Shown here one piece after another: positions 6,573 through 64,000 of a DNA stretch of 64,000 nt. This DNA is from Xiphias gladius (taxonomy: Eukaryota > Chordata > Actinopteri > Istiophoriformes > Xiphiidae). The translations under genes and the position numbers were made by a program. How positions within the stretch are numbered: the stretch's first letter is position 1; every line of letters begins with the position of its first letter. The stretch is taken from NCBI RefSeq assembly GCF_016859285.1, contig NC_053413.1, forward strand, positions 26,318,439 through 26,382,438, read 5' to 3'. Under the pieces are notes generated by a model. It ran no database searches. It was not told where the DNA came from and worked only from the letters and a program-made list of their open reading frames with translations.

Positions 6573-8318
6573 AGCCCGAAGGTGACGTTGTCTTGGCAAC
6601 TGTTGTTTCCAAGGTCATAAATGAACTCGGGAAGTTTCAAAAGAACTTCTTTAAATGAGTGTCTCTGTTTGAAGAGAGACTAGAATAAGGCGATGGGACG
6701 CCGCTTTGCGACCAAGAAAACTGACTTAAAACTGGAGGATCTGTTGAAATTATTCCACCACACTGGCAGAGTTTTTCCACAGGTTTTAAGAAAGTGAGAC
6801 CTTTGAGAGACTGTACCCCAAAAAAAAAAAAAAAAATTAGAAATTAGATGGGGTTTTTAAAGCAGCGGAGAAACATTACATTGGACACAAAAGCCAAAAT
6901 CCTCTCATTTTGTAATTTTTCAAAAAAGCGTCTGGCATTATGAAGAGGAAAACTGTACTTAAAGAAAGCAGGGAGAAATTACGCTTTTTCATTTTTCAGT
7001 AGTAAAAATACAACCACATTTAAATCTTATTCTAAAAATTAGTTAGTTTGTAAGATAGTGAAAGTTTGGGATTTTCAGACTGTGGATGTAAGAACGTAAG
7101 AAATGCTGTAATGTGAATTTTATATGAAAACGATCAACCAACTATGAAATTGAAACACCACTGAATTTACAGGACTGGAACATTTTACTTTGAAAACCGT
7201 CGGTTTGATTTTATGTGGTTTCATTTCCCCTCTTTCCATTTAAGTTGTGCCATTTAAGAAACTTTTTATTTTTTTTTATTTTTCATGTTCAAAAATTCAG
7301 ATGGAAAAAAAAAAAAAATCACACGTCTGAGGTTTCCAGTAGGTCATCTGAAGTTTTTCTTTGTTGGATCACACGACTGACTGGAGGTCCCGTCGATCCT
7401 CGTCAGCCCGGATGTTCATGTTTGAATTTTTTTTATGTTGACTTTGGGCGTCTGAATTTTACCAGTCTAATTTGAGCAACCGGATTTTTTTTTTTTTTTT
7501 TTTTTGACCTGAAAGTCGAATCTGCTTTAATTTTTAGATTTGCTTTATGAACATTTTTTTTTTTTTTTTTTTTTAAATCCCTAGAACAAACAAAGAAACT
7601 GCTCCGCTGAAAATGATCCTAGTTGGAACACACACATTCAGACAAATGGTTTTCAGAGTGAAATATTTCAGGGCTCTACATTGTGATTACTCCATAAAAA
7701 TAGGTGACTTTTTTTTTCTTTTTTTTAAAGGGTTAGTCCATGGCATTTCTGAGCTGTAAGACCTGGAGTAACAGTATTAATTTTTCAACACCTTAAAGCA
7801 GTATTACCAGTTATGTCCTAAAGAGCAGCCTCCGTGCTCATGACGCGCGTTGTTACAGCAGTGCGAATCATCAGATTTGTTGGCCTTTCGTTGCAAATCT
7901 CTCCTTTCCACTGTGTTTTTTGTTTTCTTGTTTTTTTAATTATAATTTTTTTCGGTTTATCCTGAATCTTCAGACCTCAATGAAGACACTGTGTTTAGGA
8001 CCGTTGTGCTGCCTGTGGAGGCAAAGTGTTTCACACACACACACACACAACATGCAGTAGTTATGAGCTACCGGGTCAGCTGCTGTCCTCTGAGGACGCT
8101 CGCTGGTTAGGACATGGAACAGCACGTAGAGACAGGAAGGCATTAATTCAAAAAGGAGGAGGAAAAAAAAAAAAAGAGCCGAGAGACAAGACAAAACAAA
8201 ACAAAAACCAAAACAGTATGATTATCAGGAAAAATGGTAGTGGGACTTGTGTCTCATGTGATCAGTACTTTTACATTTGAGAATTTTGTATAAAAAATGT
8301 CGTAAAATGGCGAAAATG

Positions 8319-9534: not shown

Positions 9535-10332
9535 TTTTTTTTTTTTTTCACGGCCTTGCTACTGTCTATCCTCCTCCCCTGCTCGTTTCACGTCCTCTTT
9601 CGGGCAGAAGGCGGCGTTTGCCTCCGCGCGTCGTTTCATGTAGTAAAATGTGGCATCAATTCCCGACCGTGACCACACACACACACACACACACACACAG
9701 ACTGAATCTGGATCTGTATGAGCTCCATCACACAGATGTAGGTTGGTTCACTTTTTTTGTTTTTTTTTTTTTTTTTCACGGCCTTGCTACTGTCTATCCT
9801 CCTCCCCTGCTCGTTTCACGTCCTCTTTCGGGCAGAAGGCGGCGTTTGCCTCCGCGCGTCGTTTCATGTAGTAAAATGTGGCATCAATTCCCGACCGTGA
9901 CCACACACACACACACAGACTGAATCTGGATCTGTATGAGCTCCATCACACAGATGTAGGTTGGTTCACTTTTTTTGTTTTTTTTTTTTTTTCACGGCCT
10001 TGCTACTGTCTATCCTCCTCCCCTGCTCGTTTCACGTCCTCTTTCGGGCAGAAGGCGGCGTTTGCCTCCGCGCGTCGTTTCATGTAGTAAAATGTGGCAT
10101 CAATTCCCGACCGTGACCACACACACACACACACAGACTGAATCTGGATCTGTATGAGCTCCATCACACAGATGTAGGTTGGTTCACTTTTTTTGTTTTT
10201 TTTTTTTTTTCACGGCCTTGCTACTGTCTATCCTCCTCCCCTGCTCGTTTCACGTCCTCTTTCGGGCAGAAGGCGGCGTCTGCCTCCGCGTCGTTTCATG
10301 TAGTAAAATGTGGCATCAATTCCCGACCGTGA

Positions 10333-10374
<42 letters not shown>

Positions 10375-10883
10375 TGAATCTGGATCTGTATGAGCTCCAT
10401 CACACAGATGTAGGTTGGTTCACTTTTTTTTTTGTTTTTTTTTTTTTTTCACGGCCTTGCTACTGTCTATCCTCCTCCCCTGCTCGTTTCACGTCCTCTT
10501 TCGGGCAGAAGGCGGCGTTTGCCTCCGCGCGTCGTTTCATGTAGTAAAATGTGGCATCAATTCCCGACCGTGACCACACACACACACACACAGACTGAAT
10601 CTGGATCTGTATGAGCTCCATCACACAGATGTAGGTTGGTTCACTTTTTTTGTTTTTTTTTTTTTTTCACGGCCTTGCTACTGTCTATCCTCCTCCCCTG
10701 CTCGTTTCACGTCCTCTTTCGGGCAGAAGGCGGCGTTTGCCTCCGCGCGTCGTTTCATGTAGTAAAATGTGGCATCAATTCCCGACCGTGACCACACACA
10801 CACACACAGACTGAATCTGGATCTGTATGAGCTCCATCACACAGATGTAGGTTGGTTCACTTTTTTTGTTTTTTTTTTTTTTT
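9535..10883 (+). repeat. Tandem array of a ~217-239 bp unit, six head-to-tail copies
   Basis: Six near-identical units follow each other. The landmark CACGGCCTTGCTACTGTC starts at 9549, 9777, 9993, 10211, 10450 and 10668, so spacings are 228, 216, 218, 239 and 218 bp. Each unit is a poly(T) tract, a ~120 bp GC-rich core (ending near ATGTAGTAAAATGTGGCATC), a (CA)n run of variable length, and a closing segment (ACTGAATCTGGATCTGTATG, then GTTGGTTCAC) before the next poly(T). Length differences come mostly from the CA and T tracts. Two further units stand at 11462-11720 and 12343-12580. The open frames across it repeat with the unit and are not genes. Confidence 0.95.
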
Positions 10884-11232
10884 GACGCTTCTGTTCAGCT
10901 GGTGTCCCGGTTTCAAACCCATAAACGATGCAGGACGAGGATGAAACGTCGAGGCCGTCTCTCTGAAGGCTTCTTTGTAAATCTAATTATTACCAGAGCT
11001 ACTTTGACACCTTTTGACGAGTTCACTTTTTCCTCAAATTCGATTTTTGCAAAAATAGTTTTCCCATTTGACATAGTTTAGCTTAAGGATGAGGCTGGTG
11101 TTGTGTCTGTTTCTTATTGTCAGCAAATCCAATGCAAAGACCAGAGCCAACAACGCGTTAGTCCGTCTCCCACAGGACTTTCTGACCTCCCTCCTCTGTC
11201 TGCGGCTCTCGGCTCCTACTGAAGATGTAAAA
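10884..11232. other. Spacer between the tandem array and the composite repeats
   Basis: This interval does not repeat within the window. It begins GACGCTTCTGTTCAGC after the last poly(T) and ends at the poly(A) that opens the first composite unit. The part 11080-11230 (around GGATGAGGCTGGTGTTGTG) looks like a piece of a dispersed fish repeat, but I cannot name it. Confidence 0.4.
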
Positions 11233-11658: not shown

Positions 11659-12481
11659 TGAATCTGGATCTGTATGAGCTCCATCACACAGATGTAGGTT
11701 GGTTCACTTTTTTTTTTTTTTTTTTTTTTTTTTTAATCAGTATTGTATTTATTTCATAATGAGTGTTTTTGAAAGGCCACACTGAACAGAGGCAAAATGT
11801 AGATTTGTGGACACACTGTTTACAAATGCCTTGACTTCTGTCAAAAAAAATGTGAAAAAACAATAAAACAGTATTACAGAAGCTGTGGGTTTGTGGGTAT
11901 TTATTCTCTGGGTGTACAACATAAAGGCTTCTTTATGGAAACAAACTATCACCAGCATCACTTTTCTTTACCAAATTTGGTTCCAATTGATCCAAGACAG
12001 TGGCTGTGCTATTTTGGTAGGTCTAATCAGATAAAGTCTTATTGTGAAAAGAAGCAGCATTTAATACTATTTTATCCTTTTCTGACCTTTTTTTTTCTGC
12101 AAAAAAAAAAAAAAAGTATAGTTTCACCTATAAACAGGCACAGTCATTTCCTAAAGCAGCTGGACACTGTAGATGTTGACAGACGTCACTCAAACAACAG
12201 CAACGCGGCGGATTGATCCACATCTGCTGCCGCGGTGTGAGTTTGGGGCCAGCAGACAGCGAGGTTCTGAATCAGTCGGGCAGGTGACCTCAGTGTTTCG
12301 TCCTCGCGCTGACGATTTTCCCTGCCGACACCAGCTCCGGGATTTTTTTTTTTTTTTTTCACGGCCTTGCTACTGTCTATCCTCCTCCCCTGCTCGTTTC
12401 ACGTCCTCTTTCGGGCAGAAGGCGGCGTCTGCCTCCGCGTCGTTTCATGTAGTAAAATGTGGCATCAATTCCCGACCGTGA

Positions 12482-30948: not shown

Positions 30949-32622
30949 CTATTTGAGTTCACAGAACTCAGCTGTGTCTCCAACATGCCAGTAAAGCCCT
31001 AGTCCAGCATAGAGAGGCTGAGTGAATGTGGTCTGGACTCTGTGGAGGAGAGTCATGGTTTCAGAGACACTGTAGAAGGACAGAATACCTGCACTGTGAT
31101 CCAGATACACTCCTACTCTGGAGGACTGAGGACCTGAGACTGGAGTCTTGATGCTGTTATACCAGAACGTATAACCCATTTGGTCACAATTTAATGCCCA
31201 AGATTTGTTATTTAGTCCGAATACACATTCATCCAATCTTTCTGCTCCACTGATATTCTTGTATGCGACTGCTACATAAACTCTTCTTCTCCACTCCACC
31301 TCCAAGTAACAACGTCCAATCAGACTCTCTCTGCTCAGGACCTGACACCATGTAGTGAATCTTTCTGGGTGACTAGGATAAGACTGTCGCTGACTCATTA
31401 ATGTTGCTTTTCTGTTTCCCTCAGATAATAACAGACGTGTGTGTGCTGTGTTTGGATCCATTGTGATTTCCTGTGAATATTTTAAGAATCCAGCTTTGGT
31501 CTTGGGCTCTGGTTGTGGCAGTAAAACATCCACTTCAGTCACTGTCATTAAGATGTTTGTCCATTTCTCAGTCAGAATGTCCTGTAGTTTATCTCTGACC
31601 TCTGACACAGCTGCTGTCACATCTTCAAAGTACCTCAGAGGACGGATATTGATGCTGGATGAGTCTGTAGATTGACTGAATCCTGACAATGAGGGGTAGT
31701 TGCGTAGAAACTGGTTGTGATCCTCTGTGTGTGAGAGCTGCTTCAGCTCAGCGTCTTTCCTCTTCAGCTCATTGATCTCCTGCTCCAGCTTCTCCTGAAG
31801 CTCTTTTACTCGACTCACTTCAGTTTTCTGCTGGGATCTGATCTGCTGCTTCACACCAGAGCTTCTTTTCTCGATGAGACGGATCAGCTCAGTGAAGATC
31901 TTCTCACTGTCCTCCACTGCTTTATCAGCAGAGCGATTGATGGCCTCCGCCTCCTGTTGAAGCACCTTCACATCTCTCTCTCTGTCCTGGATTCTCTGCT
32001 GGATTTGTTGTCGACTCAGCTCCAGCTCTCTCTGCCTCTCAGTCCTTTCTGCAGCAGCTGAGACTGTGTCGTGGCCTTTATGTTCATCCACAGAGCAGAG
32101 ATAACAGATACACTGCTGATCAGTGCGGCAGAACATCTTCATCAATTCATCATGACGAGAGCAGATGTTCTCCTGGAGCTTCTCTGAGGGGTCCACCAGC
32201 TTGTGATTTTCAAAGGCTGGAAACTCATAATGAGGTTGGAGGTGCTTGTCACAGTAAGAGACAAGACAAATCAAACAGGACTTGACAGCTTTCAGTTTTC
32301 TCCCAGTGCAGACATCACAGGCCACATCTTCAGGTCCAGCATAGCCGTGATCAGCAGGAGCAGCTTGGAGTCCCGTTTTCTTCAGCTCCTCCACCAAAGC
32401 TGCTAACATGGTATTTTTCACCAGGACAGGCCTCGGTGTGAAGGTCTGCCTACACTGAGGGCAGCTGTGGATTTTCTTCTCATCCTCTTCATCCCAGAAG
32501 CTTTTAATACAGTTCATGCAGTAGCTGTGTCCACAGGGAATAGTCACCGGATCCTTCAGTAGATCCAGACAGATCGAACAGGAGAAGGTTTCCTGGTCCA
32601 GCTGAACTCCTTTCTGCGCCAT
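30949..32622 (-). CDS. Intronless TRIM E3 ubiquitin ligase (RING, B-box, coiled coil, PRY-SPRY), 557 aa
   Basis: A single uninterrupted frame of 557 codons plus stop (TAG at 30949-30951). I chose the ATG at 32622 (MAQKGVQLDQETFSC) because fish proteins of this family start this way; an in-frame ATG six codons upstream would add MLLKGE. Domains in order: C3HC4 RING at about 15-57 (C15, C18, C30, H32, C35, C38, C54, C57), B-box-like zinc region around 105-145, a B-box around 155-195 (CSRHDELMKMFC, CSVDEHKGHD), a coiled coil at about 200-300, and PRY-SPRY at about 375-557 (LEVEWRRRVYVAVAYK, VGVYLDHSAGILSFYSV). It belongs to the large teleost finTRIM/TRIM16-TRIM25-like group. The RING should act as a ubiquitin E3 and the SPRY as the target- or virus-recognition module in the cytosol. 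The exact paralogue is not assignable by eye. Being intronless, it may descend from a retrocopy. Confidence 0.93.
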   Translation of the reverse strand: MAQKGVQLDQETFSCSICLDLLKDPVTIPCGHSYCMNCIKSFWDEEDEKKIHSCPQCRQTFTPRPVLVKNTMLAALVEELKKTGLQAAPADHGYAGPEDVACDVCTGRKLKAVKSCLICLVSYCDKHLQPHYEFPAFENHKLVDPSEKLQENICSRHDELMKMFCRTDQQCICYLCSVDEHKGHDTVSAAAERTERQRELELSRQQIQQRIQDRERDVKVLQQEAEAINRSADKAVEDSEKIFTELIRLIEKRSSGVKQQIRSQQKTEVSRVKELQEKLEQEINELKRKDAELKQLSHTEDHNQFLRNYPSLSGFSQSTDSSSINIRPLRYFEDVTAAVSEVRDKLQDILTEKWTNILMTVTEVDVLLPQPEPKTKAGFLKYSQEITMDPNTAHTRLLLSEGNRKATLMSQRQSYPSHPERFTTWCQVLSRESLIGRCYLEVEWRRRVYVAVAYKNISGAERLDECVFGLNNKSWALNCDQMGYTFWYNSIKTPVSGPQSSRVGVYLDHSAGILSFYSVSETMTLLHRVQTTFTQPLYAGLGLYWHVGDTAEFCELK

Positions 32623-32645
32623 TTCACCTTTCAGTAGCAACGACT

Positions 32646-32672
32646 GAGTTTCACTTTCTTAGAACCGAAACT
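32646..32672 (-). promoter_or_regulatory. Two adjacent interferon-stimulated response elements upstream of the TRIM gene
   Basis: On the minus strand the sequence reads AGTTTCGGTTCTAAGAAAG then TGAAACTCAG. It contains GAAAGTGAAACT (32648-32659), a perfect GAAANNGAAACT ISRE core, and directly before it AGTTTCGGTTCT (32661-32672), the inverse-oriented ISRE form. They lie 24-50 bp before the chosen ATG, so they are in the core promoter or the 5' leader. ISREs bind IRF/ISGF3 factors, which fits an interferon-induced antiviral TRIM. Confidence 0.7.
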
Positions 32673-48055: not shown

Positions 48056-50347
48056 TTATATTGACTTAAATCTGGGAGCAGCAGCAGCCTTTATCCCTCA
48101 GTTTTCAAGATAGAAGCTTTTTCGTGGGGACAGTGTGCGGCTGCCACAGAACGGGGGGAGTGGGATCGCACCGGGATGAAAGTCCTCTTACAGGACCGGC
48201 AGAGCCAAAACTCCTCGTCCTCTGCCAGACGGCCCACGGATGGGGTTCTCACGGTTCTCGAGACGTTTCCCTCGCACGTCTGCGCCTTGCCGGGTTTCTG
48301 AAAGAGCAGAACAGGCGGAGACGCGGGTCTCCGGGGTTCCTGACTTCATAAGCTCATCCTCAAAAAAAAAAGTGGATTGCCGAGGCGCGAGACTCAAATG
48401 AGCTGCTTTGTTAATAAATGCTTGTTACTTTTGTATCTTTAAATATTCTGTCAAAATGCAAAATAAAGACTTGAGTGAACACACGCCTGAAAGCTTTACT
48501 CCTTCAAATAGTCATAATAGTCTGATTAGTTTTTCTGCTCATCAACCGAATTCAGCAGCGAGGCGACAGCAGAGAAAAGGCTCACTCGACTCACTCGCCT
48601 TTTCCGAGCTTTCCATCTCACCTCACGGTCTTCCTCAACAGGTAGAGCTCTGATAAAAAGCGTGTAAGTGGACCTTGAGTTTTTTCTTTTTTCTTCTTCG
48701 ACAATCATACGAACTGTTCCCAAGGCCAAGAGACAACTTTGACATTTAATTCCGCTTCTTCGGTGACTGAATCTACAGCCCGAAAACGACTATTAGTCGA
48801 TCGGCCGTTTGGCACAAAACGCGCGGCAGCCATTTTAACGATCGATCGGCTTTCGGAGTTTTTCCGACGCGACGATCGGCCGCGTTTTGCCCCCTCCGTT
48901 TTATTTTAGCGACACACACTCATTGGGTTTTCGGATTTTATTGACATGGATGTGGCCTTTTCTCGCCGAGGGGGAGTCTCGGTCGACTAATCGCTTTTGT
49001 TTCGATTTTTTTTAACACACAGGCTTTTTTTTTTTTACCTTTGAGCAACCTGGTATTTTCTAACTCCGTGTCTCACCTCCTGGTACCGAGGAGCGACCCG
49101 GGAGAGTTTTACATCCAGCAGCGTTTATGAGGAGCCCGGACTCCCGGAATAACTTCTCCCGGCGAGCTGAACATGTGACACAGACCGGAGCAGAGGGGGG
49201 AACAGAGTCACGAAAACTCCGTTTGACGGGGCTTGATGCGGGAGACTGAGGTTACAGCCCCGGTCCACAGAGGTCTCCCCCGATCCGTGTCGGCTCACAT
49301 GGCTGCGTTTGTAAAGCCCCCCCAGTGGTTCCGAGGCAGGTGCCGAGCCACCCACAGAGAACACTATGCAGGGGCGCCGGGGGTTTTCACGGCAGCCGGG
49401 ACGCGACCGTCTCATCTTGCGTCCGGGGTGGTGGTGAAGCCCGAGTCTCCGGTCCCTGCATCCTCGCCCCAGGCCTAAACCGGCCAGCGCGCCGTCACAT
49501 CTTGGCCTTCGGGAAGGCGTGTGCGGAGGCAAGCGAGCGGTCTTCGGCTGTGCACCCCCGGAGGAGCCCCGGCTGGGTCCGGCTGATGTTCCCCATGCCA
49601 CCAGCGAGGACTACACAATCCCTGGATCGGGTTTTTCATGTTTGCCACAAAAACCGTAACCTTATTATGAGTTAGTCTGATGTGTATCATCAGTGAGTGT
49701 GAGCCCGTAATCAGGTTGGGGACGCGGGGGGTGCAGGGGGGGTCTTTAAGTGCAGAGAACCCGCGGACCCGAAGCAAATCCTCCGCGTTTCCATCGGCAA
49801 AACGACCGAAACCGGCGTACGACCGGACCGAGGAACCAATGTGGTCGGCGGGACGAGCCACCGCGCGTAGCCCACCGAAGCAGGAGCGATTGACAACGTG
49901 TTGACAACGCGTGGGACGTGGACTCGGCGCCGGTCCAGACCCACGTGCCGGCGGGAGTGCGCTCCAGCCCCATGCGCTGCGTCGCGGGGCCCACAGAGGG
50001 CGCACCGGGGTCGGGTCGCTCCGGCACCTTATAGCGCTCGGTCCTCGCTGGTCGCGCCTAGTGAGCGTCCGGGAGCAGGACTTTGACGGGGCCGCGTCGC
50101 GCTGCGAACAGGGAGAGGTGGAGGAACGGATTTCTCCTTTTTGGATTCCTCTTCCTTTTCTCTTTGGAGAATTTTTTTTTCTCTCTCTCCCCCAGGACCC
50201 GGCAAGTTGTTCCCCGACAGACGCAGGGGTCCGGGGCCGAAGCTTGGGACCCCACAACAACCAGAGCTCTTACTGAGAGACAGCCTCCGGTCCTTTTTCT
50301 GCCCGTGTCTTCATTTCATTTTCATTTTTTCTTTTCCCCTTTTGCAG
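48056..50347. other. Intergenic region, CpG-rich upstream of the neuropilin-like gene
   Basis: The left part (48056-49000) shows no exon. The right part (about 49080-50300) is clearly GC- and CpG-rich and reads like a promoter/CpG island with a non-coding first exon for the downstream gene. A pyrimidine-rich stretch ending TTTTGCAG at 50347 could be the acceptor of the first coding exon. Long open frames here are on GC-rich sequence and have no recognisable domain. Confidence 0.45.
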
Positions 50348-50375
50348 ATTGCCTGCGTCCTGCCATCTGCCGAGG

Positions 50376-51573
50376 ATGCGCGGTGGATTGCTCTTGTTGC
50401 TTCTCACCCAGGCCGCCTCGGCCTCGGCTCCGACCGGTAGGTTGCCGCCTCTCGCCCGGTCCGCCAGGGGGTTCGAGTGAGACCAGGTGGACGCCGTTTG
50501 TACCGTTATCACGGGGAATAAAGGACTGAGGACAGAAACAGCGTTACTGTATTTTATAGAACGAACGTTAAGTCATACCCAAAGGTTGGTGAAGCGCCTT
50601 AGGATCACTATGAACTGACAGTTTAACACACCAGGAGTCCCCATGTTAAGCTTTTCCTCATTATGGTAGAAAAACTAGGCTTCAGGGCAGGTTTCCACTA
50701 AAGCTTGACGTGATCATTCCTTAGAGAAAAAGGAAACGTTATCATCCTGCCTGTTTTTGCAGGGGAAGCAGCAGCAGCAGCCGCCGCCGCCATCCCACCT
50801 TATGGCAGGGTTGCAAAGGAGCCCGCCCCACTTTATCCCACACCTTTTCTAAAGTATCACCATCGAGGGGCTTGTTTTTTCGCCCCCTTTCAGGCCGATA
50901 TAAATTCCTGGGATGTGAATTTCCAGCTGAAAAGTGTGGACCGGGGCTTGGCGTCTTAGTTTCCTCGCTCCTTCCCTGCTGATGCTCTCAAACCTCTTCC
51001 CTCAAAATGTGCCACCAGTCAACGTTTGAGCGCAGCTCAGAAAAGTCAGTTTCTCTCAGCTAACTACCTGAACAGCCCCCCCCCCCTCTTTTCTCATGCT
51101 GCAGGTAACTGCGGGGGGAATATAACGGTAGAGGAGCCGGGCTACCTGACCTCCGCCGGCTATCCCATCACCTACCCGCCCTCCCAGCGGTGCGCCTGGG
51201 CGATAACCGCCTCTGAGCCCGGTCAGAGGATCCTCGTCAACTTCAATCAGCATTTCTATCTGGAGGACAGAGGCTGCAAGTAAGAGTCCACTCCTCACTC
51301 GCTGTCCCCTCCGCTGTCACGGGTGGATGTTGCGTGGATAGAAAGGCCCACGGGTCATGAAGGTTCGGAGGCTGTGATCTAGTGTGAAACACTGAACTGG
51401 GAGAAGGTCAAAGAGTCTGAGCCCTGCTCACCTTTGGCATCTGCAGTCTGGGGCCTGTGAAACGGGCCGTCTGGTCCTGAAGTCACCCTGCATCTCGGCG
51501 TCGCCTTTTTTCACGCACGCATGACGTGTGAAGCCTCCACAGGCTCAGGGACTCGGTCTGATCCAGTGCAGTG

Positions 51574-51628
<55 letters not shown>

Positions 51629-54600
51629 ACATATATGCTCAAATTCACAGAAACACCACCACCTTCTTCTTCTCTTGCACTTAAACATGCACTTTGACTC
51701 CTGCGATCACAAACATCTTGCACAGAAGCGGTGCGACGGCTGTTATCACTGTCTCTCTCTCTCTCCCCCTCTCCTCCTGCCTTCCTCTCTCCCCCTCTCT
51801 CCCTCTCCCTCTCCCTCCGCCTCCCTCTCCCCCTCTCCCTCTCTGCCTGACCCACCACCAGAACGAGGACCCTCGGTCCAGTCCAATGCGGTGTATTTTT
51901 TCCCCGAACATACTTGAGACGGAGCTGGTATTTTCTTACGGGTCTGAACAGCAAAAAAAAACAAAATAAAAACATGCACACAAGATCATTTTTCACCTCA
52001 GATGTAGACGAGTGGATATAGGATCAAAACACTGAATAATTCACTTGCAAGTGACAGGTTTTTAAAAAAAAAAAAAGGTACGGTCAGTATTGATGCATCC
52101 GCAGCGAGAACATGACTTTTATTCTCCAGTGAGGTTCAAGCTCCAAACTGTTGATCTTGCACTTCCCATAGTGCAAACTGGATGGTGTCTTTCATCAGTC
52201 TCTCCGTGCCCCTAACCTGTAACACTGGCTCTCTCCTAAACCAGTCTCGTCAATGGCTAAACCTGCATCTGCTCGCTCCTCTCCCACAGGTACGACCACG
52301 TGGAGGTTTACAACGGCGGGGATGAGCTTTCGCCCTTGTTGGGAAGGTTTTGCGGGAATGTCGCGCCGTCCCCGATCGTCTCCGGCGGGAACCGGCTCCT
52401 CATCAAGTTTGTCTCTGACAACGAGACCCAGGAGGCAGGATTCTCCCTTCGCTACGAGGCCCTCCAGAAAGGTGGGTGGGGGTCTGTGGTTTCGTCATAC
52501 GCCTGCTGAAATGTCCCCGTCGTAGCTGCTGGTACTGGAGAGCAGCATCAGCTACGAGCGCAAACAAAAGAAGCCTCATCTTTCATTCCCATGAATAATA
52601 ATAGTTTGCCGAGACCTGGGAACTCGCTGAAAAGGATTCAGGCAGAGCATGAAACATGAGCAGCGGACTACTTGGCCTTGAATGTTTCCAAAATAAGAGA
52701 ATCCGTGGTGGATTTATGCGAGGTTCAGCTCTGGTTCAGCTCCCAACGCTTCGGTACCACGGGAAGGAAGGTATGATGCGATCTCATCGCGCCGGTACCG
52801 ACGGCGTCCTCGCCGCTGCAAAAACGAGGCGTCGGGAACGGCATGGGCGGTCGAGCCGGGAGCTGGAAACCCCCCGTTCGAATCTACACCCACAGTAAGA
52901 GGGACACACGTTCCGAGGCTTCCCCCCGTTGTTTTTGCTTTACGTAAAATCACCACAGCAAATCTTCGAAACTGCAACCAAGTGTCAAATCTTGAATTTT
53001 CATCTGAGAGGTTGTGAACAAACCCCCAAATGGGCCAAATTCATCGGAGAGAGAAAAGAGAAATGAAAGGCAAACGTTTCAATTTGTGTCTGCTCTCCGA
53101 TCGTCCGAATGCTCGTGTTTCACGTCTAGTTTGTCTGAATTATAACATTATCACCGAGTTCCCAAAACTCTGCAGTTACTTTGGTAGGTTCAGTATTACG
53201 ATAACTGGGAAATGAAGAAAAAAAAAAGTTTGTGCCAATAAACTGGAATGACTTCTCATGTGTGTTTTTCTCGGTTGTTTGATCGAACTAGGGCCCAGTA
53301 CCCCGAGGTCGCTTTTCAGAGAATGTAACAGGATTAAAAGTATTTCCAAATTCGGTTCCCAAGGTCGGCCAAGGTTGTCCAAACAGCCCGAGCTGAACCT
53401 CCGGTACACTGACCCAGAATTCCGTTGAGGACCGGCAGTTTCCAACTAGGCTAGATGCTAACAGGATGGGCTTACACAAACACTGCCTGCCGGGGAAGGA
53501 ACCTTGGTCCCTTGTCCTACATTCGTATTTGCTCTGGCCTCCGGGGTCCGCCTGAGCAACGGCCACGTGCGCCAGATGTCAAACCTCCCGTGACCACTTC
53601 AGTTTCCACCAACGGGGACCGGAGCTGAAGCAGATAAAAAGGGGAACGTGTTTACGTGAGAGTCCCCGTTCTTTTCGTTTGCACCCCCGGGAGCAATAAA
53701 GATTCGCAGGATCCAGGACTGACAGTCCCCCGTGTGGCGTTGTGTTGAAATGTCCTGTTCTGTACCGTGGGAAATGGGTAGGAAAGTGCTCTTTTGTACT
53801 GAAATGAGGAGTGGGGCAATAATAGGAGCAGGGTTGGGGGGCCCAGTTCACACTGGAGCTCCTCCCGGCTCTGCACTCGCTGCACCCGCAGCCGTCTCCC
53901 CTGTCGGCTGGAAAGTGCTTCTGACACCGCAAACTTGTTCAACTTTAATTTCAGGCTGCAAAGTGGAGCCGTGACTGATGAACGACAGGATGTAATTAGA
54001 AAGTCAGTGGTCCTGAACATTTTTCATTTAGAATTTTTTTTTTTTTAATGATTATAGCTTCCAGAGAGATTTCGGCTGATTTATATTCGAGCTCCGATCT
54101 GTAAGAAAATGATGTGACTGGGACTCGTAGGCTCTGCTATTGCAGGGTCACCTGCCCGTTCACTGTCAGAAAAAGTATAACTTTGTGTCATTTGTGGCTG
54201 AAATTGACACCTGTGATGGGGTTGAAAGGGAAATTTAAATTTGACATGAGGCTGGTGAATCTTGAGGGTCTAATAAAACTGCAATAAACTGTCAGTTGAA
54301 AAGCATAAATGTAATTTAAAGGTTCAGTTCAAAGGAATATTTTAGCATTTACCTCAAGTGTAGTGGTATCTCGCCATGTAAACAGACACCGTACTGTACA
54401 AATAAACAGCTAGACTGATAAGGTCCATTTAGGAGCCGTTCTGGAGCTTTCGATCCCTTTTTGTTTTGTTTTTTTACCTCAGCAGAGTTCGCCCAGTTTT
54501 CATGGAGCTATAACTGATGAAATGTCTGTTCGTTTTCTTTTGTTTTTGTTTTGTTTTGAAATCACTTGCTGAGTATGAACCTCAGCTTTTATGGGCCAAA

Positions 54601-56901
54601 CTCAAAAACTGCTGATGAGGATCATGTCGTGTGATCAAAAGCTCCAGAACAGCGACTACAGTCCATGCAACTTGTGGCGAGACCCTTTGACCATCTGAAC
54701 TCGCTTCCAGTCTGCTCCGACTCAGTCACCGCCGTGACTTCCGTGCACCGATGCAGTTGGTGGAGGAATAAAGGAAGAGTGTTACGTTTACATTGGCAGA
54801 TCTGCTGGTCTGAGCCTGCAGGGTATGAGCGCGGTGGTAGATGCCAGGTCTAGGAGTCTCCACGTGCTGCCGCTGCCGCTGTCCCTCCTCGTTTGTCGGA
54901 GCAACCGCCGCCTCCTCTCTGCTGGCTGCTGCTCAGCTGCATGTCGGACGCTGCAGAGCGAGCTGGGAACTTTCTTCTTGTGCGTGCGGACGTGGTTAGC
55001 GGCCTTTTCATGCTGTGGATTATCGCTGCACATCTTTTTCCATCTCTTGCTTGTGTGTGCAACAGACCAATGCACGGAACTCCAGGCTCATTTAGCTCAC
55101 GGGCTGTTCGGCCGTGGAAGTAATAATTGGGCACTTTCCTTGAATTTTTCCAGTGTTTCTAAGAAATATATGGTCCAAAGACTTAAAAGACTCTGTGAAG
55201 AGGTCAGAGCTGTAAAAGTGTTTTGGGCTGACCCAGGAGGGTCAAAAAACGGACGGTATTTCAGTTTGTGTGCATTTCCATTATGTCTGTATTGTTCACA
55301 GGCCCAGAGTGTTCCAGAAACTTCACGGCTCCCCGGGGCGTCATCCAGACGCCCGGCTTCCCCGAGCACTACCCCAGCAACCTGGACTGCACCTTCGTGA
55401 TCTTCGCCCCCGAGGCGTCAGAGATCGCGGTGGAGTTCGACAGCTTCGACGTGGAGCCCGACGCCAAGCCGCCGCCGCCGCCGGGCGCCCTCTGCCGACA
55501 CGACCAGCTGGAGATCTGGGACGGCTTCCCTGCAGGTGAGGAGAGGATCCGGATCAGGCTGAGATCAGTGAGAAAGGTGGATGAAATGCCGACTGAAATC
55601 TGGGAGGGTAGGGAACGGGTAGGAGGGGGGAGGAGCACAAAGGATGGGTGGCTTCCCTGTAGGTGGGACGAGTTCGGATGGAGAGATGGACGTGGAGGAG
55701 GAAAAATAAGTTGATAAAGACAAGAGGAAGGTGCTGGACATAGGAAGGGAGGAGAGAAAGCAGAAAGGCAGAGCTAGGCGAGTCCAGCTGTTTTATTTTG
55801 GGGAGAGAACGTGTTTGTGCTTATGTCAGCTAGAACAGGAAAAGTCCTTGAAACAGGATGCACTTGTCACAACACTGAAGCATCTGGCGTCTTCAGATAA
55901 TATTTTGGAGAATTTTCTCTCTCTGATGGATTCACGGGCTGTTTCGGGACTTTGGCACGTTAGAATAATCGAGTATATCCCTGTCCCGATTGGCTGGATG
56001 TACAATGGGTCCGCTCTACCACCTTGGCCCTGATGGACTGATTTCTACACTGACTGTGGAGCTCGAATCGAATGGGGGAGAGAGGTTTTGCTATGGACAA
56101 CACAATTTTTGAGTCACTTCCTTACATCTCAAGAATGTAAGACATGGTTCTTGTGGACCTTTTAGATCCTTCAAAATGTGGCCGATTTGAGAAGAGTCAA
56201 GAATTTTAAAGACTTTTAAATGTTTCTGAAAATACAAGAATGACTTTGAAAGAGCTTGAATTTCAAAATAAAACTAAAGCTAATCAGCATGTCAGCTCTC
56301 TGGCTCCGGGGAAATGTCTGCGATTTGCGTCGAAATAGCAGAATTAAACTGCTTTTCATCAAATTTGCTTTGACTTGACAAAGTCATATGCAACTTTGTT
56401 GAGAAGTGTCAAGCTTGTACGTTTTTGCTTTCAGTCACGAAACGTTTCCCAGGACGGTGAGGCCAGGGAGGGACAAAGTGAATAATAAAAGCACTCTGCA
56501 GTTAATGAGTGAGGCAGCTGACGCTCTCCTTTTTCTTCACCTCCCCTGCTCCATCTGTCACTCCCTTTGTCTCTCCATCAACCCTTTGTTTTTTCTTCCT
56601 CCCCTCTTCTTTTACTTTGACTCCCTCTCAATCCATCTGTTTCATGCCTTCTCTTTCATCCTTCGCTTTTGAACTGCCTCTCCTTTGTCCCTCTTACAAC
56701 CCCCCCCATCCTCCCTCCCCCCCAGTGGGTCACCACATTGGCAGATACTGTGGTCAGACCTCCCCGGGACGCGTGATCTCCCACACCGGCATCCTGTCCA
56801 TGACCCTCATCACTGACAGCTCCATCGCCGGAGGGGGATTCTCCGCCAACTACACCATCCACAGCAGGGGAGCCTCCCCTTCGGCCCGGCTGGATCAATG
56901 A
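50376..56901 (+). CDS. Short secreted neuropilin-1-like protein with two CUB domains only, 275 aa
   Basis: Five exons, 50376-50436, 51105-51279, 52290-52471, 55302-55535 and 56726-56901, total 828 nt and join in frame (stop TGA at 56899-56901). Residues 1-20 (MRGGLLLLLLTQAASASAPT) are a signal peptide. CUB1 (about 22-140) has NCGGNITVEEPGYLTSAGYP, PPSQRCAWAITASEPGQ, CKYDHVEVYNGGDE and KFVSDNETQEAGFSLRYEAL. CUB2 (about 141-262) has GPECSRNFTAPRGVIQTPGF, NLDCTFVIFAPEASEI, HDQLEIWDGFPAVG, IGRYCGQTSPGRVISHTG and GGGFSANYTIHS. Sequence and intron positions match the a1-a2 domains of neuropilin-1, the co-receptor for class 3 semaphorins and VEGF. Normal neuropilins (about 920 aa) continue with two discoidin domains, a MAM domain, a membrane helix and a PDZ-binding tail. 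Here the frame ends 13 residues after TIHS (RGASPSARLDQ), with no GT donor before the stop and AATAAA 6 nt beyond it. It could be a separate truncated paralogue or a short isoform ending before exons beyond the window; the lack of a donor favours the former. Confidence 0.88.
51580..51626 (+). repeat. (CA)n microsatellite
   Basis: A pure AC run of about 23 units in intron 2 of the neuropilin-like gene, preceded by GCGCGC. Confidence 0.95.
51747..51850 (+). repeat. Polypyrimidine (CTCTCC)n tract
   Basis: About 100 bp of nearly pure CT-rich sequence in intron 2 of the neuropilin-like gene. It is a mirror-repeat candidate and can in principle form H-DNA. Open frames here are low-complexity artefacts. 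Confidence 0.85.
54431..54659. mobile_element. MITE with GTAGTCGCTGTTCTGGAGCTT-like inverted ends
   Basis: The left end AGGAGCCGTTCTGGAGCTTT (then CGATC) and the right end, read on the minus strand, GTAGTCGCTGTTCTGGAGCT (then TTTGATC) match over about 25 bp. The interior is AT-rich with no frame. It lies in intron 3 of the neuropilin-like gene. A relative lies at 6164-6572. Confidence 0.7.
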
Positions 56902-56906
56902 TGAGA

Positions 56907-57113
56907 AATAAAGGAGTTCGGATTTCATTCGTCTTTAGGAAGGACCAGGGTTGATTGCCTGGATAATTGTGTGTGTTATTTGTCTTGTGTAGTATAAAAG
57001 TACTAGTACAGACCCCAAAAATTGGCTCATCCGCTGCTGATTACCCTGATAATTACTGGAGGAAACTGTGATGTTCATGTAAACAATACTTGGACTGTTA
57101 TGTATTCAATAAA
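56907..57113 (+). terminator. Two poly(A) signals of the neuropilin-like gene
   Basis: AATAAA lies at 56907-56912, only 6 nt after the stop codon, and again at 57108-57113. Use of the first would give a 3' UTR of only about 20-30 nt; the second gives about 220 nt. Confidence 0.7.
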
Positions 57114-57994
57114 ATATATTCCTTATAGGCAGAAACGGCACGTTTAATCATAAGTTTGCACAGAGTGGTGGAGGAGAGAGAGAAATCCTCCTGATCCGCA
57201 GGTTCCTAAAGGCCTGAGGAAGCAAATGTGTTATCTTTCAAGGTTAGCGAGGGAGAGAGCGGAGACAGGTACACTATTGTGCCAGTTTGCAGGTGGGAAC
57301 TTGCCTGATAAGGACGAGCAGCTCCGATAATTGGGTGTCTTCCTAGCAACCGCCATAGTCATGACTCAGCAATATTTTAGAATTAGCCCAAATCAGACAA
57401 CTCCGTGTATAACTGTTGACCAATCAGTAATATTCGCCTCGGTCCTGGAGGAGCATGGAGCGTGAGGGATGAAAGAATATGTCGGAAAAGAGATTCTTGC
57501 TCTGTCCCCTTCGCATGTCAGATTTGTACTTTGTACTCTGTTATTCGAAGAATAAAAATTGTCATTCATTAAATTTCTTATCCTCCTCTGCCTTTGATTT
57601 GATTCCTACGAACCCAGAAGTGAATGTTTGATCGAGTCTGTGGAAGAGTCGAAGTACACAAGAAAATCCACAACACACGACTGAATTAATGGTTTTAATT
57701 CAGCTTCAGCCCGAGTGTCCTTGAGCAAGACGCCGAAGCCCTCCCAGCTCTAAAGGAGCTCGTCTACATCTGGTCTGTGGTGAGGACGGCCCTCCTTCGG
57801 TTCAATTTCAATGGAGAGACAAGGTGGGTAAATGAACATGAGGGGACACCCCAGCAGTGCTTGCTGAGAATGCCAGTTAGTAGCAGAGAGTAGTTAGAAG
57901 AAAAGTCTAAACAGTTTTCTAAAAGTAAAAAAGCATGAATAAACTCTTCAAATGGATAAAGTAATGGTTGAGCTGTGGATATAGATAGCTAAAG

Positions 57995-58081
57995 GTAACG
58001 GATAAATGGTTGAACGGTTATTTAAACGTAACGGATAAATGGTTGAACAGTTATTTAAACGTAACGGATAAATGGTTGAAA
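57995..58081 (+). repeat. 33-bp tandem repeat, about 2.6 copies
   Basis: The unit starts GTAACGGATAAATGGTTGAA and continues with (C)(G/A)GTTATTTAAAC. Copies start at 57995, 58028 and 58061, with a single G/A difference between the first two. Confidence 0.85.
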
Positions 58082-61000
58082 TATCCAGCTTCTGCCAGCA
58101 AATGTGAGCAAACCAACTTCAACAATAGTTCAATTATTGCTGTATCATAGCGTTTTCACAGCCAATTTAAAATCCATTCAAATGAACATATTTGGAACAT
58201 GACGGGGTAGTGTCATTTAAGGGGTTAAAGCTTGAGATCTGATGGGGATCTGCAAGGGTGCATCTGACAAAAAAAAAAGGTTGGGGACACTGAAAGATTT
58301 GGCCCTGAACATTGTCAACGTCAACAAATCTTGATGGTGAGCACAAAATCCAGCTTCCTGGAGCCTCTTTGGTGATCTCGCAAGCAAACTCTCTCCCCCC
58401 ATTTATCTGTGTTACTTTGAATGATGTGCGGTCGTGTCAGTCTCGCAGGCCATGTGTCTCCAGGGTGCCCTCCCTCATTTGGGTTTGTCCTTCCCCTGGC
58501 TCCTCTACTGCCACAGGCTGGACACTGCCTCCTGCTGTTTTGAAAGTGTTTCACAAGGCCAAGGGATTGTGGAACTTTCTCAATCCACAGAGGACTGCAT
58601 TATCCTTCTGATAAAGATGTATTGTAAAAAAATTTTTTTAAAATCACCAAAATTAGAGCTAAATATTTACACGACGTTAGCTCCAATATGCGCCCATGAC
58701 ACCTCACGAAACACGACGACATTTAAAATTACAGAGGAGGTGGGACAACACTTCTTGTTTGTGATTGGACAGAAACCCTGAAGTTGCTTGGCAAGCAACC
58801 ATCACCACCACCACCTGCTCCCGGCAAGAAACCAAGTTCGGCAGCAGAGGAAAATTACAAATAGCACCTTTAAGAGTATTTTATCAAACAAAACCGCAAA
58901 ACAGGTTACACATCTTTTTTTGGACTGTTGATAGGACAAAACCTGTTTTTTGAGTCTGACCAATATTAGTTTATCACTGATATACCACTGGCATGTGTGT
59001 GACAGATTACTACCCAAAAAAAAATAAATGCCAAAGATATGTTTATGGTCATTTGGAAACTATTGCAGTTACTTGGCTTTTAGATAACATGGACATGTTT
59101 CATAAAATGCTGTGCTTGGTGCATAGCTTTGTGAGAATGAACAAATTTAGGGCAAGTTCTGAATTTTATTATTATTAATAACTAAAATATTTATTATTAT
59201 TATTATTAAGTGATATAGTCAGATTTTTTTGAAGACTTGAGTATTAATTTTGGCCTCCAAAAAAAAAAAAAAAAAAGTATTGCTCAGGCCTTATTTTAAT
59301 TTTGCTTTCTCACGTAATAGGTTGACAGAGGAATCAATATTGAACATATTTATTAATCCTAGCCGTATATCATCTAGGTTGAGTCGGTTATTTAAAAAGG
59401 AAAGAAACGACATGATCAACTACTTCTGGGTTTTAAGGTGGACTTTTTCTTTCAGGTTTCATACGCGTGTTACTGTGTTCAAAATGCTGGGAAAAACGCT
59501 TTTGAAGGATCATCTTCAGCCAAACGCGTCTTTTAGGATTAAACTGAACCCCGTACAACCTCAGCTGGTCACTGGCTCCGTGAATTCACTGGGTAGCAGG
59601 ACTTAAACGGTTTCATGGGGAGAAGACAGATTTCAGCTCCAGGTTTCATGCAGCATCCAGACAAGTCCGATCATCATTTGTCATTTTTAATATAAATCTT
59701 TTCACCCTCACACAAATTGCACATTTTTTTTTTCTCCAAATGGACACACAGTCAGCAGTGGATAACTTACTGGTTGACATCTTCCTTATACACCGTGAAC
59801 TGGCTAAAAGGAGGAGAAACAAAAAGAATAAAATAAGAGACATCTAACTTGATCTTACCACCACTTTACTATGGCATGCATAGGTTTCAGACCTTACTCA
59901 GAAAGAGACAACAGACACTTTGTCTAAGAAATTTTCTAAACGATGCCGTGACTGCTTGCGATCCAGAAAAGAAACAAAGCGAGAAACCAACCAAGGTACA
60001 GAAAAACTCTGTTCCACCGTGAGGAGAAATGTCAACTCGGGACCCCTTGGAAAAACTAGGGGAGAAGATGTGTCTAGCAAAAAAAGCCTCGGCGTTCCCG
60101 TTTGTCTGCAAATGGCCGGCGCAAACACACAGGCTTCAGACACACGGCTGCGAAGTAGTCTTCCTAAAAGTATTTGGTTCTTTATTTTGTAAGTATGGTA
60201 GCCACAGTGCAGTTGACAATACTGGATGTTTTTTTATGGTTTTTCTGTTTTTGTATTTTCCCCATCGATGCTTTGAGCACTAAGAGGCCAGAGGAGGATC
60301 TGGTAAAAAAAAAAAAACAAGAAACAAAAACCAAAAACAAACTGAAACCTAGTGGGTAGAGGAAGGATGATGGGTAGACATGGTCAGTCAGAGACAGGTG
60401 GACTTGGGGGCTTTTCATACCTGAATTCTATTTCAGCAGCAGCTTTAGAAAATAATAACTAGGTAGTAAAATGCTGCCGGGGTCGAGGTTGACAGAAGGA
60501 AAGCTGGTGACCGAGCCAGTCCGGGGTCAATGTTAATTAGCACATAAACTGAGAACAAAACAAGCAACAAACTTGACTTTGACTACCCAACATTAAAATC
60601 GAACTGAAATTCAAATTCTTGTTTGCAGAGAAATTAGTATACACCTCCTCGGCATTGGATTGGAGTTGTGTACTCATTGGGTCAGAACTGTTATTACCAA
60701 AAAGAAGAAATTAAAGGTTTTGAACTTATTTTTTTTGCAATAATAGTGCCCCCCTACATTCATGATATCCAGGGGGGAGTGAATTTTTGGCAGCCACTCT
60801 TAATGTTGGTACCAGTAATTAGTCCTATATCGGTGTAGGTTGGCACTAAACACAGTTCATATTACTGCTTCAAATCTAACGGCGACATTCAGTTGACCAG
60901 CCGGGGAGGCTAAAGTGGTTGCTGCGACACCCTGAGGTACCGTAAGGACAGACAGAGAGGTATCCTGCAGCCAAGACCGGTGATAAAAAGCTCACGGTTA

Positions 61001-62236
61001 CAAGACGCAACACGTTTTCCAGGACCTGAGTTGTGGTGCACAGCAGTTAGGAATAGCAACTGACAGAGCAGTGGTGGAAAGCTTTGTTATTGTAAACAGA
61101 AACCAAAAAAAAAAAAAATGCTGATACATCTGACTGAACCTGAGCCAATCAAAAAGACTCAAATCAGACTGTACAGTGAAAGCTACCTGGCTTACAGCTT
61201 TTCATAAAAACACTCGCTATGAAGGGGAACTGTTGAAAAAGCGTTTGGGAACCACTACCGTTGTCCCTTCCCTACATGACTGTGACTCCGTACATCGGTT
61301 ACTCTGTCATGATTAAAATTATGCAACAACATACAGAGTGCTGCGGTTACAAGACTACTCATCGCTGTAGATTTCTACACTGTGGGACAAACACAGGGCT
61401 GCCCATAATTCAGCAGCTGTTACATTAACATGTAGGAAAAGTAACGTCTAGTGGGAAGCAAACTAGGCCTACTAGCTTCCACTTTCCCAGTGGAAAACAA
61501 TGTTAACATCACAATGAGTCCTCCCATATTTTAAATGTTGAAGGGACAGACAGCCTAAACTGCTAACAGCTGATAACCAACACTATTTGGACTTGTTCAA
61601 AGGGGGGGTGGGGGAGTCTTGTAGCAACATTTGGTAACTATAACACCACATGGCTATTATATTTTCCAGTCAGTAGCGCACCAGGGAAGTTGACGACATG
61701 GTGCCTACCAAGCTCGGCTGTCAAAAGATGGGAAATGCCTACTCAGAGGCTTGAAGCTTGGACATAAATGTGTCCAAAAATCCTGTCAACCCCCTTTGAC
61801 AATTAAAAAGTGGATAGCTGCAGCATCATTATCGTTCCTCACGCAGAATTCTTCAAATGAGAAGAATTCAAATTTCAGTTCAACTTTAAATCAGACGCAG
61901 AGCTCATTTAAGAGGTCACCTCCGCAGCAGCTGGGTTTTGCTGTTGCTCGGTCTTCTGGTCTGAGTTCAAGTCTGAAAAGCCTGCTGCTGCGCAGCTACA
62001 CACAAAAACGAGTCCGCCTGTACTTAAGGCCCAGGGCCCAGGGTCTGTCAGCTGCTTGATTGGACCTTACTATGCTAAACCGAGGAAGAGGAACAAAGGG
62101 ACATATCGGCTCCTGAGTTCTTTTTGGGTGAAGGATTAGCATAGACATTGATAAGAATATAACGATTAACAATGTTTGCATCAAACCTGCTGTGCAGCTG
62201 GGGCTTTTGAGGAGGGGTTAGGGGGTGTCAGAAATC

Positions 62237-62463
62237 ATTCCAGGGTTCCTACGCAGGTTTTCCATTTCACAGATTTCAGACTTTGTCGAGAAGTGTTTGA
62301 GGATGTAGCAAAGGCTCTAGTGAAGAGAGATTACCTCACAGCAAATTCCACAATGTGTGAAATAAAAGTTATAAAACTTAAGAGTAAGTCGGTTTTCCAA
62401 ACTTTTACAGACCTGGAAGTGGTCAAATACATCAGATTTCCACCTGCGTAGGAACCCTGGAAT
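62237..62463. mobile_element. hAT-like MITE with ATTCCAGGGTTCCTACGCAG ends
   Basis: The first 21 bases (beginning ATTCCAGGGTTCCTACGCAG) are the exact inverse complement of the last 21. Interior phrases such as 'ttttccatttcacagattt' and 'cagacctggaagtggtcaa' are those of a common teleost hAT-derived MITE. No clear target-site duplication is visible beyond the perfect inverted repeat. The small open frame inside is not a gene. Confidence 0.8.
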
Positions 62464-62921
62464 CAACTGAACGAGAAACACAAAATCTGCAGACTAGGAA
62501 CAACCAGTACGCTTGAGGGGTCACTTTTGTCAGTACAAAGCATTGCAGGATTGTTTTTTTTGTTTCAAAAATTTCCTTTCATTTCATAACTAAATATCCC
62601 GCTCTACGTATATAATTCAATTCTGTTGAACTCATATATAAACGTTAACATGTACACACGCTCGTCACTGGTAATCGGTGGAATCGGGACCTTTATTATA
62701 ATAAGTTGGTGGAACTTGCTCTTGCTGGCGCTCAACAAATATACTGTGAATGCAAGTAACAATAATTAATATAATGATAATTAGAATAATAATAATAATG
62801 ATAGTAATAATAATAATAATCATCATCGCCGTCGTCTGCACCATGCCTTGTAAACCTGGAAAAACTAAAAACAAAACAAGAGCCAGGTAACCACGCCTCC
62901 TCAACCCACCCCCACCCCCCC

Positions 62922-62955
62922 CAAACACACACACGCACACACACACACACACACT
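62922..62955. repeat. (CA)n microsatellite
   Basis: An ACACAC run with one CG interruption, next to a C-rich stretch. Confidence 0.9.
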
Positions 62956-63107
62956 TCACCCATGAAAAACAAAAACAAAAGATTAAAAACAGGGAACATT
63001 GAGTTGAGACTGTAGATTCTCTCTGGCTTCTTCGAAGTCCTAAGTCCACTTGCGTCACATATGAACGTCCGGCAATGTCCCGAAGGCAGTGGAGGGGAGC
63101 TGGGGGT

Positions 63108-63143
63108 GTGGTGTGGTGGGGTGGGGTGGGGTGGGGTGGGGGT
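63108..63143 (+). repeat. (GGGGT)n run, G-quadruplex candidate
   Basis: Five or more successive G4 tracts separated by single T (GGGGTGGGGTGGGGT pattern). If ranbp9 is transcribed leftwards over this point, the G-rich strand is the non-template complement in its 3' UTR region. Confidence 0.8.
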
Positions 63144-63885
63144 TGGCTGTCGGCAACAGAGCCTCACATGGGCTGGAGATCGAGCACTTAGCGAGCCATT
63201 GTGGAGATGGACTTTTCCATCCCGTTTTCAGCATCAGCCTGCCTCTGTGTTCGCTCCGTGTTGTGTGTGTGTGCGCATTTACCTGGTAAGCCAGGTTTAC
63301 GGGGACCACGTTAAAGGGTGGTCGGCCATGGTGGTCGCTTGTCCGTTTTCCTTTTTTTCGTTGTTTTTTCCTTATTTTGCCACGTATGTTTGACCAGGGG
63401 TCTTCGCCACTCTCTCTGCCCCGGTTTAATGCCGCCAGGTATAGGGGGCACCGAGTATCTGCACCGAGTCCACGAGGTTGGCTCACCGGGAGTATTTTCA
63501 AGTTGGCTACTCTTGGCTGGCGTCCCCGCTGTCGGTCAGAATGTCGTCGCCGCGGCCTCGGAGGGCCGGAGGAGGGGGTTAGCGAGGCCAACCAACTAAG
63601 AGGCGTAATTTCATATTTACGATGGAAAGGGAGGTGGTGGGTTTGTGTGTGTGTCCGTCTGTGTTTTAAATGTAAGCGGTGTCTGTTGGCGCCCGAAAGA
63701 CCTGCTCAGAAATGTCTCCCGGCCCTTGACGGTGTTTCTGTCGATCAGTCAAAGCAGAACAAGAAGCGAGTGAGATGGCTAAACTTTCTACTGCTTGTTA
63801 TCGTGCAGAGGAGCGTCTCCTCAGCTAATATGACGCCAATGTTGGAGGAGGTTGAGGGAGACACTTCTGGACAGGTCTTCAGAGT

Positions 63886-63909
63886 ATGTGTGTGTGTGTG
63901 TGTGTGTGT
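63886..63909 (+). repeat. (GT)n microsatellite
   Basis: A short GT run about 30 bp left of the putative ranbp9 stop codon. Confidence 0.9.
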
Positions 63910-63937
63910 ATGCATGTATGTGCGTGTGTACGCGGGG

Positions 63938-64000
63938 TTAGTGCAAGTAATCGTCCACAGAGGCAAAGGCGCAGGAGCCACTGCCAGTCCGTGCCATGAT
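63938..64000 (-). CDS. ranbp9: RAN-binding protein 9, last 20 codons (partial, runs off the right edge)
   Basis: Reading the minus strand from the window edge gives IMARTGSGSCAFASVDDYLH and then a TAA stop (63938-63940). As I recall them, the C-termini of RANBP9 and RANBP10 end in a very similar stretch (SCAFATVEDYLH type) of the CRA domain, which helps assemble the CTLH/GID ubiquitin-ligase complex. The position supports ranbp9: in human 6p23, RANBP9 lies next to NOL7 in convergent orientation, as here. Only 63 nt are available, so the call rests on a short peptide plus synteny. ranbp10 is the main alternative. Confidence 0.6.
   Translation of the reverse strand: MMARTGSGSCAFASVDDYLH

Follow-up and report, generated by a model that had tools for sequence, protein, structure and literature searches.

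A predicted a1a2-only neuropilin gene in Xiphias gladius, almost certainly a partial duplicate of nrp1

The soluble neuropilins reviewed in PMC4854174 (s11NRP1, s12NRP1, sIIINRP1, sIVNRP1 and s9NRP2) are transcript products of the NRP1 and NRP2 genes; they are secreted, have no membrane part and keep both a and b domains. As described in PMC7072815, VEGF binds b1b2, and of the a1a2, b1b2 and c fragments, a1a2 was the only one to bind AP-Sema3A. Zebrafish is described as having two nrp1 genes, nrp1a and nrp1b (PMC13136202). Here we analyze a 64,000-nucleotide stretch of the Xiphias gladius genome (C14:26318439-26382438 of 690.8 Mb; hereafter the window) that contains a five-exon gene, which we call the mini-neuropilin. 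It has in common with full-length neuropilin-1 a putative signal peptide, the a1 and a2 CUB domains and the exon structure, but it is without the b1, b2, MAM, transmembrane (TM) and cytoplasmic parts of that protein. Like the soluble isoforms, its predicted product is secreted and has no membrane part; unlike them, it comes from a separate gene and holds a domains only.

The initial annotation of this DNA had proposed a separate, secreted-type a1a2-only neuropilin-1-like gene. The genome bears this out: full nrp1 genes lie elsewhere and the mini-neuropilin is a partial copy of one of them. Judged from its sequence, it is a separate, genome-encoded a1a2-only gene derived from neuropilin-1, and its origin is clear. 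Among the matches listed in a search of the open-access literature, we found no description of an a1a2-only neuropilin gene. The excerpted text of a trout plasma study places neuropilin-2 in plasma and describes no short form (PMC7579410).

Gene structure and origin

The mini-neuropilin occupies positions 50376-56901 on the plus strand, and splicing at consensus sites yields a 275-amino acid (aa) open reading frame. Exon 1 (50376-50436) carries the start codon and a leucine-rich N-terminus that, read by eye, we take for a signal peptide; the homologous exon 1 was read in the parent gene described below. CUB1 (a1) is divided between exon 2 (51105-51279, first half) and exon 3 (52290-52471, second half), the latter carrying a new NET sequon at residues 123-125. 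Exon 4 (55302-55535) encodes the first half of CUB2 (a2) and is 6 bp longer, in frame, than in four paralogues of the same genome. Exon 5 (56726-56901) holds the second half of CUB2, a 13-residue tail and the stop codon (56899-56901), and has lost the parental donor. All eight splice sites of introns 1-4 are intact, the intron phases are 1, 2, 1 and 1, and the boundaries of exons 2-5 are identical in both full nrp1 genes, as read from the printed sequences. The five exons, the neuropilin intron positions and the stop after a 13-residue tail beyond CUB2 had all been called correctly from the letters of the window.

Pfam finds two CUB stretches in the protein (184.6 bits). The best solved relative is neuropilin-1 at 359 bits, compared to 272 bits for neuropilin-2, in agreement with the closeness to neuropilin-1 first claimed for these domains. 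Identity amounts to 151 of 238 residues with the mouse Nrp1 chain 4gz9 and 124 of 240 with NRP2. The protein keeps all eight cysteines and the six acids of the calcium sites; here we assume the calcium-ligand assignment (including D85) and Cys27 as the anchor of the residue numbering. Hydropathy over 19 residues peaks at 1.11, which gives no sign of a membrane helix in the protein. Third-position G+C is 0.82, versus 0.48 in the introns of the gene. A single-sequence AlphaFold model was poor (predicted local distance difference test score 45.6) and was set aside. Scans of viral and prokaryote collections brought up no relative: one gave no match, and in the other none of 31 pattern matches was confirmed.

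We searched the genome with the mini-neuropilin protein and obtained 84 matches, scoring 140 of the 210 candidates. Among the matches were the exon sets of four further neuropilins: nrp1 genes at C14:24.49-24.53 Mb (minus strand) and C5:2.88-2.91 Mb (plus strand), and nrp2 genes at C16:7.61-7.63 Mb (minus) and C13:7.77-7.79 Mb (minus). The remaining, lower-scoring matches presumably come from other CUB-containing proteins. Both nrp1 copies have discoidin exons, as read from their sequence, such exons are also listed at both nrp2 loci, and the neuropilin-type TM/cytoplasmic exons listed genome-wide number four, one per full locus and zero at the mini-neuropilin. With discoidin and TM/cytoplasmic exons at all four loci, these two nrp1 and two nrp2 genes therefore look full-length. 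The initial annotation had named a search for full-length nrp1 elsewhere in the genome as a check, and the C14 and C5 genes answer it. Integrin-beta exons lie beyond the last nrp1 exon at a distance of ~25 kb (C5) and ~27 kb (C14), an arrangement in keeping with the NRP1-ITGB1 neighborhood in human.

The introns and upstream sequence of the mini-neuropilin align in order with nrp1-C14, window positions 48891-58694 corresponding to C14 24,536,968 down to 24,490,314. By contrast, nrp1-C5 aligns at exons only. In the upstream and 5′ untranslated region (48891-50375, plus strand), blastn finds two alignable blocks, 48891-49110 and 50172-50282, that are colinear with C14 (reverse complement 8033-8244 and 12316-12435 of 24455001-24545000) at substitution levels of 0.36 and 0.25. 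Downstream of the stop codon, positions 56902-58694 (plus strand) were formerly nrp1 intron 5 and are now presumably the 3′ untranslated region; four blocks of it align to nrp1-C14 intron 5, and the alignment stops inside that intron, before exon 6. The copy is inverted relative to the parent, 1.84 Mb away on the same chromosome, and the two proteins are 76.4% identical over 233 aligned codons.

On this sequence comparison, we are nearly certain that the mini-neuropilin is a DNA-level, inverted, intron-bearing partial duplicate of nrp1-C14. It is most likely the derived, displaced copy and nrp1-C14 the parent, because half of the gene is missing here and integrin-beta genes neighbor both full genes. 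By descent, the mini-neuropilin belongs to the neuropilin-1 lineage: it is more similar to NRP1 than to NRP2, and its origin lies in an nrp1 gene. The alignment indicates that a stretch of nrp1, reaching from upstream sequence to exon 5 and on into part of intron 5, was duplicated beside ranbp9 in inverted orientation. A retrocopy is excluded, as the introns are kept and are homologous to those of the parent.

Both copies sit on the same assembled chromosome, as would be seen if the locus were a haplotype copy or misjoin of nrp1. However, the alignable introns of the two copies differ by 22.9% in substitutions (Kimura two-parameter distance 0.278) with 0.0169 indel events per aligned bp, intron lengths differ greatly and the window has no N. 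We rejected such an assembly artefact on the intron divergence and the N-free window, and consider it very improbable.

Two further features of the duplicated block were observed. Within the noncoding sequence of the copy, a 1.5-kb block in intron 3 (52910-54421; substitution 0.233) is the longest that still aligns with the parent. The entire duplicated block spans 9.8 kb at the mini-neuropilin but 46.7 kb in nrp1-C14, pointing to a large change of intron length in one copy.

The truncated 3′ end

Exon 5 offers no donor comparable to the gene's four real ones, which score 7.6-11.3: its strongest donor-like GT reaches 3.9 and falls within CUB2. This agrees with the reading made from the window alone, as does a poly(A) signal right behind the stop, AATAAA at 56907, six bases past the stop codon; another AATAAA lies at 57108. 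In the alignment to the parent, a 2-bp insertion sits directly 3′ of CUB2, and a 20-bp gap, whose placement is aligner-dependent, spans the parental exon-5 donor (CTTGG/GTGAGG). The last residues and the stop codon are now read from sequence past this gap that was formerly intron 5. Because the donor was lost within the 20-bp deletion, exon 5 would run on into the old intron 5, to the stop and AATAAA, where the transcript would presumably be polyadenylated.

AATAAA is not rare here, and the chance of meeting one within 30 nt of a given point is ~0.036. The site at 56907 is followed by a GU-rich stretch with seven TGT or GTG triplets in 55 nt (background mean 1.8, 95th percentile 5). An intronic AATAAA at 53695, however, has more such triplets (10).

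The sequence GATGAGAAATAAA is common to the mini-neuropilin and parent copies, and nrp1-C14 has AATAAA 35 bases into intron 5, with an in-frame stop there if the donor is ignored. At this intron start (C14 ~24,493,61x), the in-frame stop and AATAAA are followed by GU-rich sequence. We note this as a possible intronic polyadenylation site, a candidate for producing an a1a2-only isoform. On a reading to which we give little probability, the duplication may thus have made permanent an a1a2-only form that intronic polyadenylation already allows the parent to produce. Further along the former intron 5 of the copy, a 33-bp tandem repeat is present in 2.8 copies (57990-58080).

The initial annotation had allowed that the locus might be no more than the 5′ half of nrp1a or nrp1b, continued by other exons to its right. 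Its exons and intron phases do match nrp1. However, two complete nrp1 genes lie elsewhere in the genome, the parental exon-5 donor is missing here, and the next gene downstream is ranbp9, on the opposite strand. Within the window, no discoidin b1/b2 domains, MAM domain, TM helix or cytoplasmic tail were found for the mini-neuropilin: tblastn of the whole 64 kb on both strands gave nothing above shuffled controls for b1, b2 and MAM-TM-cytoplasmic sequence, and Pfam detected no downstream neuropilin domains in the three plus-strand frames of 56903-64000. The 5′-half reading is refuted on the assembly by the full genes elsewhere and is almost certainly wrong.

Coding status and predicted activity

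We asked whether the frame is maintained, using the divergence of the alignable introns as the neutral yardstick and assuming that it splits equally between the copies. Since 82% of the intron indels between the two copies have a length not divisible by three, the mini-neuropilin branch should have gathered 4.9 frameshifts in the 705 CUB-coding bases, with the tail left out; none was observed (P 0.008). The CUB frame also contains no stop, with P 0.075 for the 97 substitutions expected from the introns and 0.15 for 70. Retention of all 14 cysteine and calcium-site residues has a neutral P of 0.024. Amino-acid changes avoid sites invariant in six other neuropilins, with 15 of 55 changes falling at 101 of 233 sites (hypergeometric P 0.004; in neutral simulation the count has P 0.04 and the share P 0.006).

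Other results weigh against a maintained gene. When both tail indels (the 2-bp insertion and the 20-bp deletion) are counted, the frameshift P rises to ~0.11. Polarizing the 55 amino-acid differences by nrp1-C5 gives 36 specific to the mini-neuropilin versus seven specific to the parent, with 12 undecided. In a codon model with the tree fixed (two of 235 aligned codons with gaps dropped), the nonsynonymous-to-synonymous rate ratio (dN/dS, omega) on the mini-neuropilin branch shows no sign of lying below 1, free omega running to its upper bound. The log likelihood is −2822.65 with one omega, −2783.08 with a free omega for this branch and −2784.59 with that omega set to 1; a single shared omega is rejected (p 6e-19), and omega = 1 fits the branch nearly as well as the free value (p 0.08). 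Pairwise omega between the copies is 0.68 (NG86) or 0.36 (YN00). Synonymous changes are few, three in the mini-neuropilin and 10 in the parent, and saturation of the outgroup makes their polarization unreliable.

The mini-neuropilin protein has evolved far more rapidly than that of the parent. It may be loosely constrained, positively selected or released late from constraint, and the sequence suggests that selection probably kept the frame open for part of its history. We consider it probable that the mini-neuropilin is a maintained coding gene, a confidence lowered because the two tail indels lie outside the frameshift test. The excess of amino-acid changes, an omega near 1 or unconstrained, the 15 changes at otherwise invariant sites, the missing donor and the two tail indels would all fit a dying, pseudogene-like duplicate with a functionless product, its CUB frame lesion-free by luck. 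Against such decay stand CUB exons free of frameshifts and stops and eight intact splice sites despite an intron divergence of 0.28, together with the probabilities given above for frameshifts, stops, retained cysteine and calcium sites and avoidance of invariant sites. We therefore regard decay as unlikely, though its chance is appreciable.

If maintained, the gene would yield a CUB1-CUB2 protein that is secreted and whose disulfides and calcium sites are intact. To consider what it might bind, we mapped 17 contact residues from a Sema3A/PlexinA4/Nrp1 cryogenic electron microscopy study (PMC8155012), which prints Glu126 where the Nrp1 chain has Asp. Thirteen of the 17 are in the mini-neuropilin as in the Nrp1 chain. 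The other four count against a semaphorin role: P73Q (Sema3A side, a1), Y127N (plexin side), and Y208H and A252S (both Sema3A side, a2) alter residues that the two full nrp1 and the two nrp2 genes all share. Reports on the isolated domains point the same way, as recombinant a1a2 gave no melting peak (PMC7072815) and an earlier study is cited for a requirement of a1a2b1b2 in the ternary complex (PMC8155012). At positions where the two full nrp1 copies and the Nrp1 chain agree, the mini-neuropilin does not preferentially keep contacts (four of 16 contacts versus 23 of 142 others changed; Fisher p 0.48). Y127N creates the NET sequon, at the groove for plexin Lys343, and a second new sequon, NIT, is found at residue 26; gain of two N-glycosylation sequons has P 0.04 in neutral simulation.

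These sequons, a free omega above 1 (not significant versus 1) and the lack of preferential contact retention would fit a secreted CUB protein working outside semaphorin signaling, positively selected for another ligand. We think this improbable: 13 of 17 contact residues still match the Nrp1 chain, relaxation accounts equally for the acceleration, and complement split products are unlikely as the ligand, since human NRP1 CUB-Ig (a1a2-Ig) is described as not binding them (PMC6753332).

The most likely activity of the mini-neuropilin would be to bind, weakly and in soluble form, the sema domains of class 3 semaphorins, and so to compete with or tune full-length neuropilins without VEGF binding or a membrane anchor. 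VEGF binding is expected to be lost because VEGF binds b1b2. Semaphorin modulator is our best single guess from the sequence, offered tentatively. In its favor, a1a2 was the fragment that bound AP-Sema3A (PMC7072815); the decoy or modifier suggested in the initial annotation would be a protein of this kind. A more specific version, to which we give little probability, is a lineage-specific soluble neuropilin whose semaphorin contacts are mostly kept and whose plexin face is altered by Y127N, so that it would bind Sema3 and hinder assembly of the plexin complex. The account as a whole, a partial nrp1 duplicate that lost its donor and would now encode a secreted CUB1-CUB2 semaphorin binder, we hold with moderate confidence.

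Genomic surroundings and known systems

Other genes in the window were placed by Pfam and PDB matches: OATP transporter exons at ~1.3-3.5 kb (plus strand), a MENTAL-domain exon at 16.4 kb (minus), ependymin-type exons at 36.8-38.9 kb (minus) and a NUC129-domain exon at 45.8 kb (plus), whose gene we take for nol7. A single-exon TRIM gene (RING, B-box, coiled coil, PRY-SPRY) has a 569-aa open frame at 30952-32658 (minus). The ranbp9 gene reaches into the window at 63938-64000 (minus) with its last 20 codons, 15 of whose 20 residues are identical to the RANBP9 C-terminus, followed by the stop (63938-63940). NOL7 and RANBP9 are presumably neighbors in human as well. A tandem array of a 218-bp unit lies at 9535-10887 (6.1 copies, 89% matches).

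Since the reviewed soluble neuropilins keep the b domains, an a1a2-only form encoded in the genome would be a natural gene in which contact with semaphorin is uncoupled from contact with VEGF. With it, one could ask if the a1a2 half by itself has an effect on class 3 semaphorins in vivo. Nearly the same stretch of protein is described in recombinant a1a2 and in NRP1-CUB-Ig residues 1-264 (PMC7072815, PMC6753332), but those are laboratory constructs from the full-length gene, whereas the mini-neuropilin is a natural gene. The mini-neuropilin would also be a further example of partial duplication yielding a truncated gene that may antagonize its parent. The parallel is srGAP2C, an unrelated protein that arose by partial gene duplication and is described as an inhibitor of its parent (PMC7785817): antagonism is reported for srGAP2C, whereas the mini-neuropilin, likewise truncated, could act on nrp1 in a similar way.

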